DNA of 64,000 nucleotides from Kangiella sp. HZ709 (GTDB lineage Bacteria; Pseudomonadota; Gammaproteobacteria; Enterobacterales; Kangiellaceae). Positions 27,976-49,352 of this stretch are shown here, in pieces. The position numbers and the translations under genes are program-made. Each line of letters opens with the position of its first letter. Position 1 is the first letter of the stretch. The DNA lies in contig NZ_WKJC01000001.1 in the NCBI RefSeq assembly GCF_009674675.1, positions 1,619,031 to 1,683,030 on the forward strand, written 5' to 3'. The notes beneath the pieces were generated by a model. The model did no database searches and was not told the DNA's origin. It worked only from the letters and a program-made list of their open reading frames with translations.

Positions 27976-29784
27976 ATGAAATTTAAAATGAAATTAGCAT
28001 GTGCTGCTTCTTTATTAGCACTAGGCACAGCTGCTCATGCAGAGCGTATGATCGTAACGCACGATGGTAGTAATGGTAATGGTCTTAAAAATGGCCACAG
28101 CGTAAAAGCTGAAGGTAATGGCTGGTTCGCGGTTGAACTGGATGAAAATGGCAAAAGCGCAATGCGTGGCAAGAAAGGCTTCAAGAATATGGAAGTTGAC
28201 GCAAAGCGTTTTCCAATGAGCTTTTCTGATAGCGCCGGCAATCCTAACAGTGTTCAGGTTCTTCCTTACAACTACTTGCAAGTTGAAGGCGACCAATTAA
28301 CATTAGACAGAAATGCTGGCATGAAGGTTTGTGTTATCGATTCTGGTTTAGCGCGTGATAATGGCGAAACTGGTGGTCGTAACAACGATTTCGATTTCTC
28401 AAGAATTACGGGTGACAACGATTCAGGTACGGGCGATTGGTTCCGTGACGGTGGTGCTCACGGTACTCACGTAGCGGGTACTATCGGTGCAGCAGACAAT
28501 GGCGTAGGTATTATTGGTGTTGCTCCTGGTGTTGACATGCACATCATCAAAGTATTCAACGCAGCAGGTTATGGTTACTCTTCAGATTTAGCTAAAGCGG
28601 TTAACCTATGTGGTGCAGCTGGCGCAAACATCATCAATATGTCACTGGGTGGCGGTGGTGCTAACTCTACAGAAGAAAATGCAATCCAAAACTTCGTAGA
28701 CAATGGCGGTATCGTGTTAGTAGCCGCAGGTAACGACGGTAACACTACTCGTTCTTACCCAGCAGGTTATGAAGCTTCTATGATGGTTGGTGGCGTAAAC
28801 AAAGACAACGAGAAATACGCAGCTTCTCAGTTCCCTTCGTGTGAACAGACTTCTGGTCGTGGCAAAAACCGTACAACCGTAACTAACGAAAGAATTTGTG
28901 TAGAGATTTCTGCAGGTGGCCAAGACGTATTATCTACAGTACCTTCGGGCACTGGCGTTTCTGCAGGATTGACAGTAGATGGTACACCGGTATCAGTTGC
29001 TTCTACCTCAAATACTGGTAGCGTAACCGCTGATACATTCTTTATGGGTACAGCAGAAGCTACTAACTCTGGGGCGAATGGTAAAGTTTGTATCATTGAC
29101 CGCGGTAACATTTCTTTTGCAGATAAAATCAACAACTGTGCAAATTCTGGCGGTGTTGGAGCAGTAGTAATCAATAATGTAGCTGGCGAAGGTCCTGTAA
29201 ACATGGACATCACTGGGGCAGAAGGTACAGTTCCAGCAGTAGGCGCAGCATTTGAAGATCGTGCAGCTATCGTAGGTGCAGCTTCGGCAACTATTGAAAG
29301 CGGTGCTGGCGACTATGCAGTATTCTCAGGTACTTCAATGGCGACACCAACGGTTGCAGGTACAGCAGCATTAGTATGGTCAAATCACCCAACTTGTACA
29401 GGTGAAGAGATTCGTGAAGCACTAAAAGCGGCAGCGCAAGATGTTGGCCCAGCTGGTCGTGACGTAGACTTCGGATATGGTATTGCTAAAGCAAAAGCCA
29501 CTAGCGATTACCTAACTGCTAATGGCTGTAATGGTGGTCCGGTTGACCCTCCAGGTGGAGACGCTACTTTAACTGGCAACACTTCTAAAGGTGGTCGCCA
29601 AGCTAATATTAGCTGGAGTGGTTTGAATGGTTCTAGCGTTGACGTATTCATCAACGGTAGTAACAACGGTTCAACTGCGAATGATGGCTCAGCTTCTTAC
29701 AGCGTATCTAAAGGTTCTTCAAATACCTTTAAAGTATGTGAGTCTGGTTCTACAACGGCATGTACTAACGAAATAACTCTATAA
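27976..29784 (+). CDS. Secreted subtilisin-like serine protease (S8) with PA domain and C-terminal beta domain
   Basis: 602 residues. Signal peptide ending AHA|E at about 22; short propeptide to about 95; catalytic domain with D122 (VCVIDSGLA), H162 (AHGTHVAG), oxyanion N253 (AAGND) and S454 (SGTSMATPTVAG). A protease-associated domain is inserted at about 330-440 (VCIIDRG...ADKINNCANSGGVGAVVINN), as in lactocepin/cucumisin-type enzymes. After a GGPVDPPGGD linker, about 75 residues form a fibronectin-like module (NISWSGLNGSSVDVFI). No sorting tail of PEP-CTERM or GlyGly-CTERM type. Extracellular nutrition is likely. CRP site upstream, terminator downstream. Confidence 0.94.
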   Translation: MKFKMKLACAASLLALGTAAHAERMIVTHDGSNGNGLKNGHSVKAEGNGWFAVELDENGKSAMRGKKGFKNMEVDAKRFPMSFSDSAGNPNSVQVLPYNYLQVEGDQLTLDRNAGMKVCVIDSGLARDNGETGGRNNDFDFSRITGDNDSGTGDWFRDGGAHGTHVAGTIGAADNGVGIIGVAPGVDMHIIKVFNAAGYGYSSDLAKAVNLCGAAGANIINMSLGGGGANSTEENAIQNFVDNGGIVLVAAGNDGNTTRSYPAGYEASMMVGGVNKDNEKYAASQFPSCEQTSGRGKNRTTVTNERICVEISAGGQDVLSTVPSGTGVSAGLTVDGTPVSVASTSNTGSVTADTFFMGTAEATNSGANGKVCIIDRGNISFADKINNCANSGGVGAVVINNVAGEGPVNMDITGAEGTVPAVGAAFEDRAAIVGAASATIESGAGDYAVFSGTSMATPTVAGTAALVWSNHPTCTGEEIREALKAAAQDVGPAGRDVDFGYGIAKAKATSDYLTANGCNGGPVDPPGGDATLTGNTSKGGRQANISWSGLNGSSVDVFINGSNNGSTANDGSASYSVSKGSSNTFKVCESGSTTACTNEITL

Positions 29785-29804
29785 GTAATAAAAATTAGAG
29801 TAAG

Positions 29805-29831
29805 AACCCCGCTTTATGCGGGGTTTTTTTT
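29805..29831 (+). terminator. Rho-independent terminator after the first subtilase
   Basis: AACCCCGC / GCGGGGTT stem with a five-base loop and eight T. Confidence 0.92.
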
Positions 29832-29903
29832 AGGAATGACTAAAGCGGATAAAAATTATAATGGTGTCCTGGTTTGACCATTAATTTTATTAATGAGTTT
29901 GAA

Positions 29904-29932
29904 TTGTTCTGAACTGAAGAAATTGGTATAAA
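29904..29932 (+). promoter_or_regulatory. Promoter of the second subtilase
   Basis: -35 TTGTTC (29904-29909), 17-base spacer, -10 TATAAA (29927-29932). The leader of about 50 bases contains a small hairpin CTCATG-N3-CATGAG ahead of the ATG at 29989. Confidence 0.55.
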
Positions 29933-29988
29933 GTTAATGCTCATGTTTCATGAGAAATAACAATTCATTAATACATATGGGGTAGGAA

Positions 29989-31107
29989 ATGAAATTAACA
30001 TTAGTAGCCGGTGCAGTTTCACTGGCGGTAGCCAATGTGGCTATGGCAGATAAACCAACATTCGGTGGCGACACTGATTTGTTAAATGTACAGAATCGTT
30101 GTATCGTTCAATTGCAAGACAGCATCGACGGTAATCAAGTAAAAGGCTTAGCCAATGCATTAACAAGACGCGGTAATGCGTCTGTTCGCGATGTCTATAA
30201 GCATTCAATAAAAGGATTCACCGCTAATATGCCATGCCATGCGGCACAAAAAGCTTTTGGTGATGACGCTAGCGTTAAAGCCATGTATCCAGATGGCATA
30301 GTAACCGCTTCCTTCAAAGGTAAGCCTGGCGGCGGCGATGGCGGTGGCGGAGGCCAGCAAGTTTCTTACGGTACCACTCGAGTTGGCGGCACTGTAAATG
30401 GAGTTGGTAAAACAGCTTGGATTGTAGACTCCGGGATTGATTTAGATCACCCTGATTTAAATGTTGATGCAAGCCAAGGTTTCGTAGCCTCTGGAATTAA
30501 GGGTGGTATGGAAGATCAAAATGGTCACGGTACCCATGTTGCTGGAACAGTAGCTGCTATTGATAATGGTATTGGTGCATTGGGTGTAGCGCAGGGTGCT
30601 ACGGTAGTACCGATTCGGGTTTTAAATCGTCGTGGTTCTGGCTCTTACTCAGGTATTATTGCGGGAGTTGATCATGTTGCGGCAAGAGCCGGATCAGGTG
30701 ATTGCGTGAACATGAGTTTAGGCGGACCAGCAGACGGAGCTGTTAATGCCGCGGTTGAGGCTGCAGCGAGAAGTACTAATGCGCACTTTGTGATTGCAGC
30801 AGGTAATGATGCTCGCAACGCAAGTGGTTTCTCACCAGCAAGTGCCAATGGTAATAATGTTTATACCATCGCTGCAATGGGGCAAGGTGATACTTGGGCA
30901 TCGTACTCTAACTATGGTAATGATGTTGATTATGCAGCACCAGGTTCGAGTATTTTCTCATTATGGAAAAGCGGTGGCACTAACACTATTTCAGGTACTT
31001 CAATGGCATCTCCGCATGCTTGTGCAGTATTGATGATGGGAAGTTCAAGAACCGATGGCTCAGTGAGTGATGGCCGAGGCGGTTCTTATCCAATTATTGT
31101 GCTTTAA
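29989..31107 (+). CDS. Secreted subtilisin-like serine protease (S8) with I9-type propeptide
   Basis: 372 residues. Signal peptide to VAMA|D (20), inhibitor-type propeptide (RCIVQLQDSIDG...HSIKGFTANMP) to about 105, a glycine-rich linker (GGGDGGGGG), and a compact catalytic domain with D147 (AWIVDSGIDLDHPDL), H180 (NGHGTHVAG), N273 (AAGND) and S338 (SGTSMASPH). No PA domain or C-terminal appendage, in contrast to the preceding protease; the two are therefore not recent duplicates. Own promoter and terminator. Confidence 0.94.
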   Translation: MKLTLVAGAVSLAVANVAMADKPTFGGDTDLLNVQNRCIVQLQDSIDGNQVKGLANALTRRGNASVRDVYKHSIKGFTANMPCHAAQKAFGDDASVKAMYPDGIVTASFKGKPGGGDGGGGGQQVSYGTTRVGGTVNGVGKTAWIVDSGIDLDHPDLNVDASQGFVASGIKGGMEDQNGHGTHVAGTVAAIDNGIGALGVAQGATVVPIRVLNRRGSGSYSGIIAGVDHVAARAGSGDCVNMSLGGPADGAVNAAVEAAARSTNAHFVIAAGNDARNASGFSPASANGNNVYTIAAMGQGDTWASYSNYGNDVDYAAPGSSIFSLWKSGGTNTISGTSMASPHACAVLMMGSSRTDGSVSDGRGGSYPIIVL

Positions 31108-45306: not shown

Positions 45307-48048
45307 ATGTCAGATAAAAAGTCCCCATTTATCCTAGTCGATGGCTCTTCATACCTTTTTCGAGCTTTCCATGTGCCTCAATTACAACGTATGACCAACT
45401 CGAAGGGCATGATGACTGGCGCTGTGTTTGGCGTTATCAATATGCTGAAGAGTTTAATCAATGAATATCAACCAAGCCATATGGCGGTAGTGTTTGATGC
45501 TAAGGGTAAGACTTTCCGGAATGAACTTTATCCAGAATATAAAGCGAATCGCCCACCCATGCCTGAAGAATTGCGGGAACAGATAGCCCCTATCCATGAG
45601 ATTGTAAAAGCTATGGGCCTGCCGTTATTGGTGATTGATGGAGTCGAAGCGGATGATGTGATTGGGACTTTGGCCGATCAAGCCAGCCGATCTGGCATAG
45701 AAACTATCATTTCTACCGGCGATAAAGATATGGCACAACTGGTGACAGAGCATGTAACCCTGATTAATACCATGGATAAGAATAACCCTATTACTGATCG
45801 GGAAAGAGTGATCGAAAAATTTGGAGTAAAGCCTGAGCAGATTATCGATTACTTAGCGTTGGTAGGCGATAAGGTCGACAATATTCCTGGGGTTGATAAG
45901 TGTGGTCCGAAAACTGCGGTTAAATGGTTAGCTGAATACGAGAGTATGCAGGGTGTTATCGATAACGCAGATAAAGTAGGCGGAAAAATTGGCGAAAATT
46001 TACGCTCGGCGTTAGAGCAGTTGCCGCTTTCTTATGAACTAGCGACCATAAAGTTAGATTGTGAGTTAGAAAAAACTCCGCAGGAATTGCAGATCGAAGA
46101 GCCTGATTTTGAAGAGTTAAAAGCGCTTTATGGCGATATGGAGTTTAAGCGTTGGTTAACTGAGGTGCTACAGGCAAAAGGTGAGCAAAGCGATGAAAGT
46201 GCTGCAGAAGAAAATAGCCTGCAAATTGATCGTTCAAAATATGAAACAATTTTTGATAAAGAGCATTTTGCCAAATGGTTACAAAAGTTAACGAAGGCCG
46301 AACTGTTTGCTTTTGATACCGAAACTACCAGCTTGGATTATGTGGAAGCAGAATTGGTCGGTATGTCTTTTGCCTTTGAGAATGATAAAGGCGAGACAGA
46401 AGCAGCTTACTTACCTGTGGCCCACAGTTATATGGGCGCTCCAGAACAGCTAGAGCGAGACTGGGTTTTATCAGAAATGAAACTACTACTGGAAAGCGAA
46501 GAGCATAAAAAAGTGGGGCAAAATTTAAAATATGATAAAAGTGTTTTAGATAAATACCAAATTAAACTTGGCGGGATAGAATTTGATACCATGCTGGAGT
46601 CATACTGTTTAAATAGCGTAGCTTCTCGTCATGATATGGATACTTTGGCACTGCATCATTTAAACCATGCCAATATTAAGTTCGAAGAAATTGCAGGTAA
46701 GGGTAAAGCCCAATTAACCTTTGATCAAATCGATCTAGAACAGGCCTCTCCTTATGCCGCAGAAGACGCCGATATCACTTTAAAGCTGCATCAAAAATTA
46801 TGGCCAGAATTAAAAGCAGCAGAAGGTCCGAAGCAAATTTTTGAAGAAATTGAAATGCCGCTATTAAAAGTCTTGTCTGATATCGAATTGAATGGCGTAT
46901 TAGTTGACGGCAATTTATTGGGCGAAAAAAGCCATCAGTTTGGAGAGCGGTTAGTTGAGTTAGAACGTGAAGCTTATGAGATTGCTGGCGAAGAATTTAA
47001 TTTAGGTTCGCCAAAACAATTACAAGCGATCTTTTTTGAAAAGCTAGGTTTGCCAATCATTAAGAAAACGCCAAAAGGACAACCGTCTACCGCTGAAGAA
47101 GTGCTGCATGAACTGGCTTTAGACTATCCATTACCAAAATTGATTTTAGAGCATCGAAGCTTGTCTAAACTAAAGTCTACTTATACCGATAAACTGCCAA
47201 AGATGATCAATGCCACTACAGGTAGAGTGCATACCTCTTATCATCAGGCGGTGGCTGCCACAGGCCGTTTGTCTTCTAAAGATCCTAATTTGCAAAATAT
47301 CCCTATTAAAACCAAAGAAGGGCGTTCCATAAGAACTGCTTTTGTCGCTCCTCAGGGTTATCAAATTTTAGCGGCGGATTATTCGCAAATCGAATTAAGA
47401 ATTATGGCCCATTTATCGCAAGACGCAGGTCTACTTAATGCATTTGCCAATGATTTAGATGTGCACTCGGCAACGGCAGCTGAAGTTTTTGATGTTGCAA
47501 TTGATGAGGTAACGACAAACCAAAGGCGGAATGCTAAAGCAATTAACTTTGGTTTGATTTATGGCATGTCAGCGTTTGGTTTAGCAAAACAAATCGATAC
47601 CGATCGCAATACTGCTCAGGATTACATCAATACTTATTTTGCACGTTATCCTGGGGTAGAAACTTATATGGAATCTACTAAGGAAAAGGCAGCTGAGCTT
47701 GGTTATGTTGAAACTTTATTTGGCCGTCGTTTGTACTTGCCTGAAATAAACTCAAAGAACGGGCTGCGTCGAAAAGGCGCTGAGCGAACGGCAATTAATG
47801 CACCAATGCAAGGTAGCGCAGCTGACATTATTAAATTAGCAATGCTCAAGGTTGGTGAGTGGTTACAAGCACAACAAGGTATCAAGATGATTATGCAGGT
47901 GCATGATGAATTAGTATTTGAAGTTAGAGATGATTTGATCGAAATGGCGAAAGAAAAGATCCCAGCTATCATGGGTTCAGTCGTTCAATTATCAGTACCA
48001 TTGATCGCTGATGTTGGGGTAGGTGACAACTGGGATCAAGCACATTAA
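45307..48048 (+). CDS. polA: DNA polymerase I
   Basis: 913 residues. 5'-3' exonuclease domain about 1-290 (VDGSSYLFRAFHV, STGDKDMAQL, GDKVDNIPGV), 3'-5' proofreading domain about 310-500 with intact DEDDy residues (FDTETTSLDY, KYDKSVLDKY, YAAEDADITLKL), and polymerase domain with motif A LAADYSQIELRIMAHLS, the O-helix RRNAKAINFGLIYGMSAFGLA and motif C QVHDELVFEV. Functions in Okazaki maturation and repair. Downstream come the small RNA gene and engB, the order seen in E. coli and Pseudomonas. Confidence 0.99.
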   Translation: MSDKKSPFILVDGSSYLFRAFHVPQLQRMTNSKGMMTGAVFGVINMLKSLINEYQPSHMAVVFDAKGKTFRNELYPEYKANRPPMPEELREQIAPIHEIVKAMGLPLLVIDGVEADDVIGTLADQASRSGIETIISTGDKDMAQLVTEHVTLINTMDKNNPITDRERVIEKFGVKPEQIIDYLALVGDKVDNIPGVDKCGPKTAVKWLAEYESMQGVIDNADKVGGKIGENLRSALEQLPLSYELATIKLDCELEKTPQELQIEEPDFEELKALYGDMEFKRWLTEVLQAKGEQSDESAAEENSLQIDRSKYETIFDKEHFAKWLQKLTKAELFAFDTETTSLDYVEAELVGMSFAFENDKGETEAAYLPVAHSYMGAPEQLERDWVLSEMKLLLESEEHKKVGQNLKYDKSVLDKYQIKLGGIEFDTMLESYCLNSVASRHDMDTLALHHLNHANIKFEEIAGKGKAQLTFDQIDLEQASPYAAEDADITLKLHQKLWPELKAAEGPKQIFEEIEMPLLKVLSDIELNGVLVDGNLLGEKSHQFGERLVELEREAYEIAGEEFNLGSPKQLQAIFFEKLGLPIIKKTPKGQPSTAEEVLHELALDYPLPKLILEHRSLSKLKSTYTDKLPKMINATTGRVHTSYHQAVAATGRLSSKDPNLQNIPIKTKEGRSIRTAFVAPQGYQILAADYSQIELRIMAHLSQDAGLLNAFANDLDVHSATAAEVFDVAIDEVTTNQRRNAKAINFGLIYGMSAFGLAKQIDTDRNTAQDYINTYFARYPGVETYMESTKEKAAELGYVETLFGRRLYLPEINSKNGLRRKGAERTAINAPMQGSAADIIKLAMLKVGEWLQAQQGIKMIMQVHDELVFEVRDDLIEMAKEKIPAIMGSVVQLSVPLIADVGVGDNWDQAH

Positions 48049-48088
48049 ACCCGATCTGCAAAAGGAAAGATGAGAGTAAAGTCTTGAT

Positions 48089-48117
48089 TTTACAATGGTG
48101 ATACAACTCTTTACAAA
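48089..48117 (+). promoter_or_regulatory. Possible promoter for the polA-engB small RNA
   Basis: TTTACA (48089-48094), 17 bases, TACAAA (48112-48117). A start near 48124 would give an RNA of about 150 bases ending at the 48276 terminator. A TATATA (48163-48168) closer to the structured part is an alternative -10, with only weak -35 partners. Confidence 0.4.
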
Positions 48118-48169
48118 AGTCTTACAAAAAATTTGAAACGTTTTTCCAGGTTGAACAGTCAGTATATAT

Positions 48170-48276
48170 AAGGGCAATGAATGCCCTTCCCGCGACTCCC
48201 TCCTTCTTGCGGGTATTACAGTTTGACCTCCCCAAGTCGACTGTCTTTTTAGGGGCTCTTTTTGAGCCCCTTTTTT
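48170..48276 (+). ncRNA. Probable small RNA in the polA-engB gap with two C-rich hairpin loops
   Basis: Three successive hairpins and an intrinsic terminator with no reading frame. Hairpin 1: AAGGGCA / TGCCCTT (48170-48188). Hairpin 2: CCCGC / GCGGG (48189-48213) with a 15-base loop containing CTCCCTCC. Hairpin 3: ACAGT / ACTGT (48218-48244) with inner GAC/GTC and a loop CTCCCCAA. Terminator 48252-48276. The loops are complementary to GGAGG-type ribosome sites, typical of antisense regulators. E. coli Spot 42 and Pseudomonas ErsA lie in this same gap. The 5' end is uncertain. Confidence 0.72.
48252..48276 (+). terminator. Intrinsic terminator of the polA-engB small RNA
   Basis: GGGGCTC / GAGCCCC perfect seven-base stem, loop of five T, tail of six T. 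Confidence 0.92.
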
Positions 48277-48317
48277 AATTCATGTAAATAATCTTTATTA
48301 GCAGTCGGTAATCGAGT

Positions 48318-48731
48318 TTAAAGATATAAATCTTCTTTGCTGTAATGTAGTTCCAGTAGTTCGCGTTCTGATTTTTTAAGACTTCTGACAATCAATGAGT
48401 AGGAATGGTTAATCATGTTCTCGATTTCTGCATTGGGAATTGAGCCATCGAGTATCACGGTGTTCCAATGAGTGCGGTTCATATGGTAGCCCGGAATTAC
48501 TGCAGGAAAGATAGAGCGAAGAGCATCCGCGTGATCGGGTTTGCATTTTAAGTTCATGCACCAATGACCAGCCATTTTACCTTGGGTATTTTTTTCGTTG
48601 CCAGTTCCAAGCGCTAAGGTTGCAAACATTTTGCCCTTGATTTTGAAAACCGCAACTTCAGGACCGAATGGAAAATCTTCTATCGCTTCGGGTTTACTAA
48701 GGATGAATTGCTTGGCTTGTTGACGATTCAT
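48318..48731 (-). CDS. MmcQ/YjbR family protein
   Basis: 137 residues from the ATG at 48731 (MNRQQAKQFILSKPEAIEDFPFGPEVAVFKIKGKMFA); a TTG three codons earlier is less likely. Small alpha/beta protein of the YjbR/CyaY-like fold with the conserved WCMNLKCKPD, GYHMNRTHWNTV and IENMINHSY segments. Family members are proposed DNA-binding proteins, but function is not established. It follows engB on the same strand with a gap of 9 bases. Confidence 0.88.
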   Translation of the reverse strand: MNRQQAKQFILSKPEAIEDFPFGPEVAVFKIKGKMFATLALGTGNEKNTQGKMAGHWCMNLKCKPDHADALRSIFPAVIPGYHMNRTHWNTVILDGSIPNAEIENMINHSYSLIVRSLKKSERELLELHYSKEDLYL

Positions 48732-48740
48732 ATTTAACAA

Positions 48741-49352
48741 CTATTCCAACATGGGTGGCTCATACCAATTATCCAATTTAGCAAAAAGCTGATCGAGACC
48801 ATCGCGCTTAAGAGAAGAGAAGGTTTGTACGCTAGCCTTGGGATGAATAGTCTTGAGCTGTTTTTTGCATTGCATCAAGGCTTTAGACTTAGCACCAGAT
48901 TTTAATTTATCTGCTTTACTCAATAAGCAATGTACCGGTAAGGCTACACTTGAAGCCCATTCTAACATTTGTACATCAGTATCTTTTAAAAAATGGCGAA
49001 TATCCATGAGCAGGACTAGGCCATGCAAGCACTTGCGAGTGCGGAGATATTTGCCAAGTTCAGCTTGCCACTGCTCTTTCATGGCTTGCGGAACCTTGGC
49101 GTAGCCATAACCAGGTAAGTCAATTAAGCGTCTACCTTCATCTAATGTGAATACATTAATTAGCTGGGTACGACCAGGCGTCTTACTGGTTCTAGCTAGG
49201 CTTTTTTGTTGAGTCAGGGTGTTAAGTGCACTGGACTTGCCGGCATTTGAACGACCGGCAAATGCGACTTCAATTCCAATGTCTTCTGGAAGTTGATGAA
49301 GTTTTGCTGCGCCTAAAAGGTATTTAGCTTGCTGGTAATTCATATGAGTCAT
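48741..49352 (-). CDS. engB: Ribosome biogenesis GTPase EngB (YihA/YsxC)
   Basis: 203-residue GTPase needed for large-subunit maturation. G1 [10 protein letters not shown]3 [12 protein letters not shown]4 SKADK and G5 SSLKR are present, with [12 protein letters not shown] as switch I. Start [12 protein letters not shown] parallels E. coli YihA, so I keep the longer ATG at 49352. Opposite polA and divergent from the cytochrome c4 gene, as in Pseudomonas. Confidence 0.96.

Follow-up and report, generated by a model that had tools for sequence, protein, structure and literature searches.

The 64,000-nucleotide stretch of DNA analysed here (the window) carries, 3' of polA, a locus of about 107 bases (48170-48276, plus strand) that is probably the gene of a trans-acting small RNA with its own promoter and terminator. 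We place it in a polA/engB-linked family that would include anti-hemB, ErsA and, distantly, sX13; the window RNA itself would be switched on by sigma-E and block translation through pairing of its loops. The conserved structure, the family, the position and, in most relatives, the promoter were established computationally. The features of the locus are as follows, with changes on both sides of a base pair counted in the alignments A2 and A3 described below.

45307-48048, plus strand: polA, upstream neighbour of the sRNA, an open reading frame named from the earlier note and a reading of its translation
48091-48127, plus strand: four copies of TACAA (starts 48091, 48102, 48112 and 48123; spacing 11, 10 and 11), a possible regulator site upstream of the putative promoter
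48135-48163, plus strand: putative sigma-E/AlgU-type promoter (GAAAC at 48135-48139, GTCAGT at 48158-48163; AAC-to-TC offset 22)
48170-48188, plus strand: hairpin 1, from the fold; both-side changes in 4/6 pairs in A2
48189-48213, plus strand: hairpin 2, with C-rich loop CTCCCTCCTTC at 48196-48206; both-side changes in 5/5 pairs in A3
48218-48244, plus strand: hairpin 3, with C-rich loop CTCCCCAA at 48228-48235; both-side changes in 6/10 pairs in A2 and 10/10 in A3
48251-48276, plus strand: intrinsic terminator (stem 48251-48271, T run 48271-48276)
48318-48740, minus strand: YjbR/MmcQ-type gene (PF04237), between the sRNA and engB
48741-49352, minus strand: engB-type GTPase (PF01926), taken to be engB as in the earlier note

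A sequence-only reading of this DNA had described, at the position that Spot 42 and ErsA occupy, three hairpins followed by an intrinsic terminator, two of the loops being C-rich, and this description held. Folding of 48170-48279 on the plus strand gave a minimum free energy of -42.6, where shuffled sequences averaged -24.42 (sd 3.06; z -5.94) and 0/200 of them folded as low. The minus strand of the same segment folds equally well (z -6.20), so the strand is not set by folding but by the T run of the terminator and the promoter core. The same reading had placed the RNA in the polA-engB gap, which is correct as to the position next to polA, although the YjbR/MmcQ-type gene separates it from engB.

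A DNA search found the sRNA in 19/41 genomes, all of its own family. It lies 3' of polA in 19 of the 20 sampled same-genus genomes, that is, in all those in which polA was found; the twentieth (G002) is 55% complete and yielded neither polA nor the sRNA. Direct reading of the sequence after polA placed it there in one genome of another genus as well. Across 20 sequences CCCGCGACTCCCTCCTT, GCGGG and CCCCAAG are invariant. Alignment A2 (16 distinct rows) had 97.0% of its cells paired compared to 90.0% when shuffled (0/500) and a covariation of 0.375 compared to 0.222 (0/500 shuffles as high). Both-side changes occurred in 10 of its pairs (2/500 shuffles) and 22 further pair types were seen (23/500); the signal was lost when the pairing partner was slid. 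Neither hairpin 2 nor its loop varies in A2, which is therefore silent on that hairpin either way. In A3, whose 44 rows were fitted to the model and which hence leans towards it, 95.8% of cells were paired, both-side changes were found in 21/21 pairs, and covariation was 0.692 compared to 0.257 (0/500 shuffles). Compensatory changes in relatives, proposed earlier as a check, were thus found in hairpins 1 and 3 in A2 and in all 21 pairs of the model-fitted A3. The sRNA is a real conserved structure.

Two covariance models, R1 and R2, defined how far this structure extends. R1 matched 34/40 genomes of the family, in 6/6 genera, and 23/369 genomes of the class, the window's own genome among them. 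R2, built from 44 sequences, matched 107/369 genomes and 84/272 genera of the class; both class scans used stricter search filters and took the class as grouped by the search tool. The window RNA agrees with the R2 family in position and structure as well as in score, although its 78.3 bits (E 1.9e-12) are a match by construction, the window sequence being part of the model. Position is invisible to R1 and R2 and was the test we trusted most. Of the 22 R1 matches in other genomes, 18 have polA and/or engB as a neighbour (L078 among them, at 1.7 kb from engB), 1 is at a contig end and 3 are elsewhere. For R2, neighbours were checked in the best 49 of 84 non-training genomes with a match, up to 1.5 or 3 kb per side and less at contig ends: 40 matches have polA and/or engB beside them, 4 have just a cytochrome c4 gene and 5 have none of these. 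Families absent from R2 training supplied 41 of these best 49 (34 by polA/engB, 4 by cytochrome c4, 3 by neither), and the remaining 8 have a family in common with a training genome.

Six genomes of the window's own family carry the sRNA away from polA (L067-L071 and L073). Five of these, L067-L071 (L144-L148), belong to two other genera and have a uvrD-like helicase gene within about 2 kb of the sRNA; at L073 a transporter-like gene adjoins it (both names are from translations). Tandem copies of the sRNA, two to four in number, were seen near the polA-engB locus at L242, L247, L181 and L196 and in genomes G202 and G375.

Upstream sequences were scored against a sigma-E consensus (GGAACTT ... 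GTCTAA at a fixed offset), to a maximum of 13, similar boxes having been noticed before scoring. A score of at least 10/13 was reached by 38 of the best 49 of 84 new relatives (11 scored under 10), by 19/22 training relatives, by 11/11 family members outside the genus and by 1.7% of 2015 control windows. Restricting the best 49 of 84 to families absent from training, 31/41 reached a score of 10. In 36 of the 38 high-scoring new relatives from the same best 49 the match ends 4-9 bases 5' of the model start; in L174 and L187 it lies further away. The window promoter scored 8/13 with the full consensus (p 0.70), which is below significance and fails by score, and 0/19 same-genus sequences reached 10, with 12 reaching 9. 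The core AAC...GTC nevertheless stands at the same place in 20/20 family gaps, and upstream of the window genome's rpoE gene (319.5 bits) there is GGAACTT...GTCATT, again at an offset of 22. Because of this core and the rpoE box, and despite the failing score, we read the window sequence as a putative sigma-E promoter in weakened or altered form; the genome has both RpoE and Hfq genes. The TACAA repeats upstream, with their spacing of 10-11 bases, resemble tandem sites of OmpR-type regulators, and TTTACA-type elements are again found upstream in same-genus sequences.

The Rfam search that had been proposed earlier returned no family for the window RNA. At gathering thresholds no family was over threshold anywhere in the 64,000-nucleotide window, and a permissive search covering 48050-48320 and the 3.1 kb locus L002 gave nothing convincing (the lowest E, 0.88, was for a match on the opposite strand). 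Permissive searches of relatives gave RF02837 anti-hemB at up to 56.4 bits; L090 and L181 exceed its threshold (49.5) and the other matches stay below it. At the sRNA spot of relatives the other matches were all below threshold: RF02232 sX13 at up to 39.5 bits, RF02344 ar14 at up to 36.2, RF01719 ErsA at 31.6 (L213) and 25.9 (L078), and RF02342 ar7 at 25.0 (E 0.6). The sequence-only reading had called the RNA a positional homologue; the position stood, but on homology it was too cautious, as the anti-hemB, ErsA and sX13 models match relatives, mostly below and sometimes above threshold, though none matches the window RNA itself. For anti-hemB and ErsA there was no match at the window RNA at E<=10, and for sX13 none there either; elsewhere in the same genome no match was found to ErsA at E<=0.05 (stricter filters) or to sX13 at E<=0.01. 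The genome (G000) does have one sub-threshold anti-hemB match (E 3.0e-4), away from the window RNA.

Class-wide, the three Rfam models were overlaid on the R2 matches. Anti-hemB rows, of which only the 104 with E<=1e-6 among the matches listed were used, fell on the same spot and strand as R2 in 54 of the 57 genomes with both, and 44 of these 54 (again among the matches listed) were outside R2 training. A broader anti-hemB count of 203/369 genomes at E<=0.01 was set aside because 4/14 control genomes also matched. ErsA rows lay on R2 matches in 14 of the 19 genomes with both (14/37 rows; 12 genomes outside training) and 23/37 rows lay off them; the ErsA model matched 0/14 control genomes. sX13 rows coincided with R2 in 4 of 21. 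ErsA of P. aeruginosa PA7, found in locus L116 via a published probe sequence, scored 137.8 bits with its own model. Tried on 20 of the 47 Pseudomonas loci, R1 and R2 failed as ErsA finders, their best score at ErsA being 12.2 bits (E 2.5). Three sX13 loci over threshold (L238-L240) all lie by polA, with CTCCCCAAG in two of the three (L238 and L240); R2 gave 13.2 and 9.2 bits on two of the loci (E 0.5 and 3.1) and missed the third. L241, with 49.5 bits for sX13 (gathering 50) and 34.0 for R2, and one copy in L242, with 48.3 and 29.7, appear to bridge the two models.

A relation of the window RNA to anti-hemB is well supported, a relation to ErsA via intermediates is supported and one to sX13 is likely. 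Anti-hemB and ErsA, and more distantly sX13, appear to belong to the same polA/engB sRNA family, of which we read the window RNA as a new, Rfam-invisible branch with C-rich loops.

Three other explanations were weighed against an sRNA of this family. The RNAs could be positional analogues only, unrelated molecules in one gap whose C-rich hairpins resemble each other by convergence. In its favour, R2 misses ErsA and nearly misses sX13, Spot 42 occupies the same gap while unrelated by the models tried, and the anti-hemB model matches 4/14 controls at E<=0.01, so that it likes generic C-rich hairpins as well, and finds a match at E 3.0e-4 in the window's genome yet none on the window RNA. We nonetheless consider convergence improbable: coincidence on the same strand was seen for anti-hemB (54/57 at E<=1e-6, among the matches listed) and for ErsA (14/19, with 0/14 controls), the intermediates between models are graded, and the type of promoter and its distance to hairpin 1 are common to most relatives.

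That the element acts in cis, forming the 3' end or the terminator of the polA mRNA with no separate RNA function, is very unlikely. Its first base lies 121 bases beyond the stop codon of polA, and a terminator closes it, but a terminator has no need of invariant loops, the promoter core is conserved, and the same RNA occurs away from polA in the six family genomes noted above. A cis-acting leader was rejected since the next gene is convergent, so that the sRNA is no leader. To a small protein gene we give hardly any weight. The sequence-only reading had reported no reading frame, which overlooked an ATG frame of 33 codons from 48177, and a frame starting before loop 1 (ATG, GTG or TTG, at least 19 codons) and, in most relatives, open through loop 1 is present in 19/20 sequences. 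The frame is not conserved as coding, however, since one of the 20 relatives lacks it and the spacing of the loop motifs is 41 bases in 14 relatives, 42 in 5 and 43 in 1; the phase of the longest frame also differs, with 3 sequences using one and 16 another. Changes in the stems, moreover, compensate pairing. The candidate at 48177 was rejected on phase, spacing and these compensating changes.

For the preferred reading, a regulatory sRNA of the polA/engB family, we infer transcription, sigma-E control, pairing and targets. Under envelope stress the sRNA would be switched on by an RpoE/AlgU-type ECF sigma factor, and its two exposed C-rich loops would bind selected mRNAs at their G-rich ribosome-binding regions, leading to a block in translation. 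That the loops mask G-rich ribosome-binding sites is the mechanism we predict as likeliest, by analogy with sX13. There, reporters showed that the C-rich loops repress mRNAs carrying G-rich motifs close to the start (PMC3771888). Available portions of another report describe ErsA as repressing oprD translation with Hfq (PMC7264166).

Masking of Shine-Dalgarno sequences had been proposed from the sequence, and the target tests gave it no general support. Over 51 start regions in the window the loops did no better than shuffles, duplex energies being as low or lower in 155/200 shuffles of loop 1 and 76/200 of loop 2. Exact 9-base complements in the 2.41 Mb genome fell mostly in open frames or tRNA-like sequence: AAGGAGGGA had 4 sites (control pattern 4), one being the sRNA itself and two tRNA-like by eye, and CTTGGGGAG had 12 (control 2), one being the sRNA itself, 10 in frames of more than 100 codons and 1 in neither. 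By rough first-ATG starts, 3/51 window start regions contain GGGG, GGGAGG or GGAGGG; G-rich ribosome-binding sites are thus rare in these regions and masking would be selective. Canonical Shine-Dalgarno sequences are likewise scarce, with GGAGG or AGGAG within 20 bases in 1/51 of the same first-ATG regions. Two adjacent secreted subtilases (27976-31107, starts 27976 and 29989; PF00082) carry GGGGTA before the start and are among the best candidates for loop 2. GGGGTA also precedes 7/7 readable starts of subtilase matches in six relatives, the match in L274 being 35% identical (matches in L270 and L273 stop short of the start and L271 has no match). The motif is not a canonical Shine-Dalgarno sequence, and the subtilase pair, picked post hoc from 51 genes, is a candidate target and only a lead.

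The kind of RNA described here is known in pieces, and the unification of its families is the interesting part. We lean towards one old sRNA family, with sigma-E-type promoters and anti-Shine-Dalgarno C-rich loops, at the polA-engB locus across the class, of which ErsA, anti-hemB and sX13 would be fragments and which Spot 42 would have replaced in the window's order. In the open-licence literature we found no paper naming two of anti-hemB, ErsA and sX13, and the only paper linking the polA locus with an sRNA was that on sX13 (PMC3771888), whose authors, in the text available to us, raise the polA locus as an open question. The present analysis offers a computed answer across many genomes, joining Rfam families that are at present kept apart, and a single RNA model would allow a test for a common sigma-E arm in the control of envelope stress. 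The host may be useful for such a test given its small genome and the few G-rich ribosome-binding sites in the 51 sampled start regions.

Set beside the known systems, the window RNA is not recognisably related to Spot 42. The sequence-only reading had seen no Spot 42 match, and indeed the RF00021 model had none to the window or the sRNA region, at gathering or permissive settings; R2 in turn had none in nine order loci, Spot 42 loci among them, and membership was rejected on both searches. The likeness is one of place: Spot 42 is above threshold in the gap after polA in L038, L040 and L041, of the same order (Rfam scans of order relatives covered these and L042 and left out L035-L037, L039 and L043). 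Since Spot 42 sits in the same gap in the same order, turnover of RNAs at this site seems likely.

Anti-hemB (RF02837, Burkholderia RNA 7) resembles the window RNA in that its model matches relatives at the same coordinates and strand, L090 and L181 above gathering, and differs in that the model has no match on the window RNA. ErsA (Pseudomon-1, RF01719) adjoins engB, where it was entered as SPA0122, a putative Spot42, in the accessible part of PMC3349714, and is sigma-22/AlgU-dependent according to extracts of PMC8395346. Like ErsA, the window RNA adjoins polA/engB, with the YjbR gene before engB; upstream of ErsA in L116 stands GAACTT...GTCAGA, and at the window RNA there is the putative promoter whose core recurs in 20/20 family gaps and whose full-consensus score of 8/13 (p 0.70) is below significance. 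The ErsA model also falls, below threshold, on R2 matches in 14 genomes. Unlike the window RNA, ErsA has a C-rich run in its terminator loop and other hairpins, and it is missed by R1 and R2.

For sX13 of Xanthomonadaceae, PMC3771888 describes a gene located 175 bp past polA, whose RNA forms three stems with three C-rich loops and acts without Hfq. The window RNA is likewise linked to polA, and CTCCCCAAG is found in two of three sX13 loci. The window RNA has two C-rich loops where sX13 has three, and the sX13 model has no match on it. A third C-rich loop, TTCCCTC, is present in the terminator hairpin of L007-L012, L014-L019 and L033, and is absent in the window and in L001-L006.
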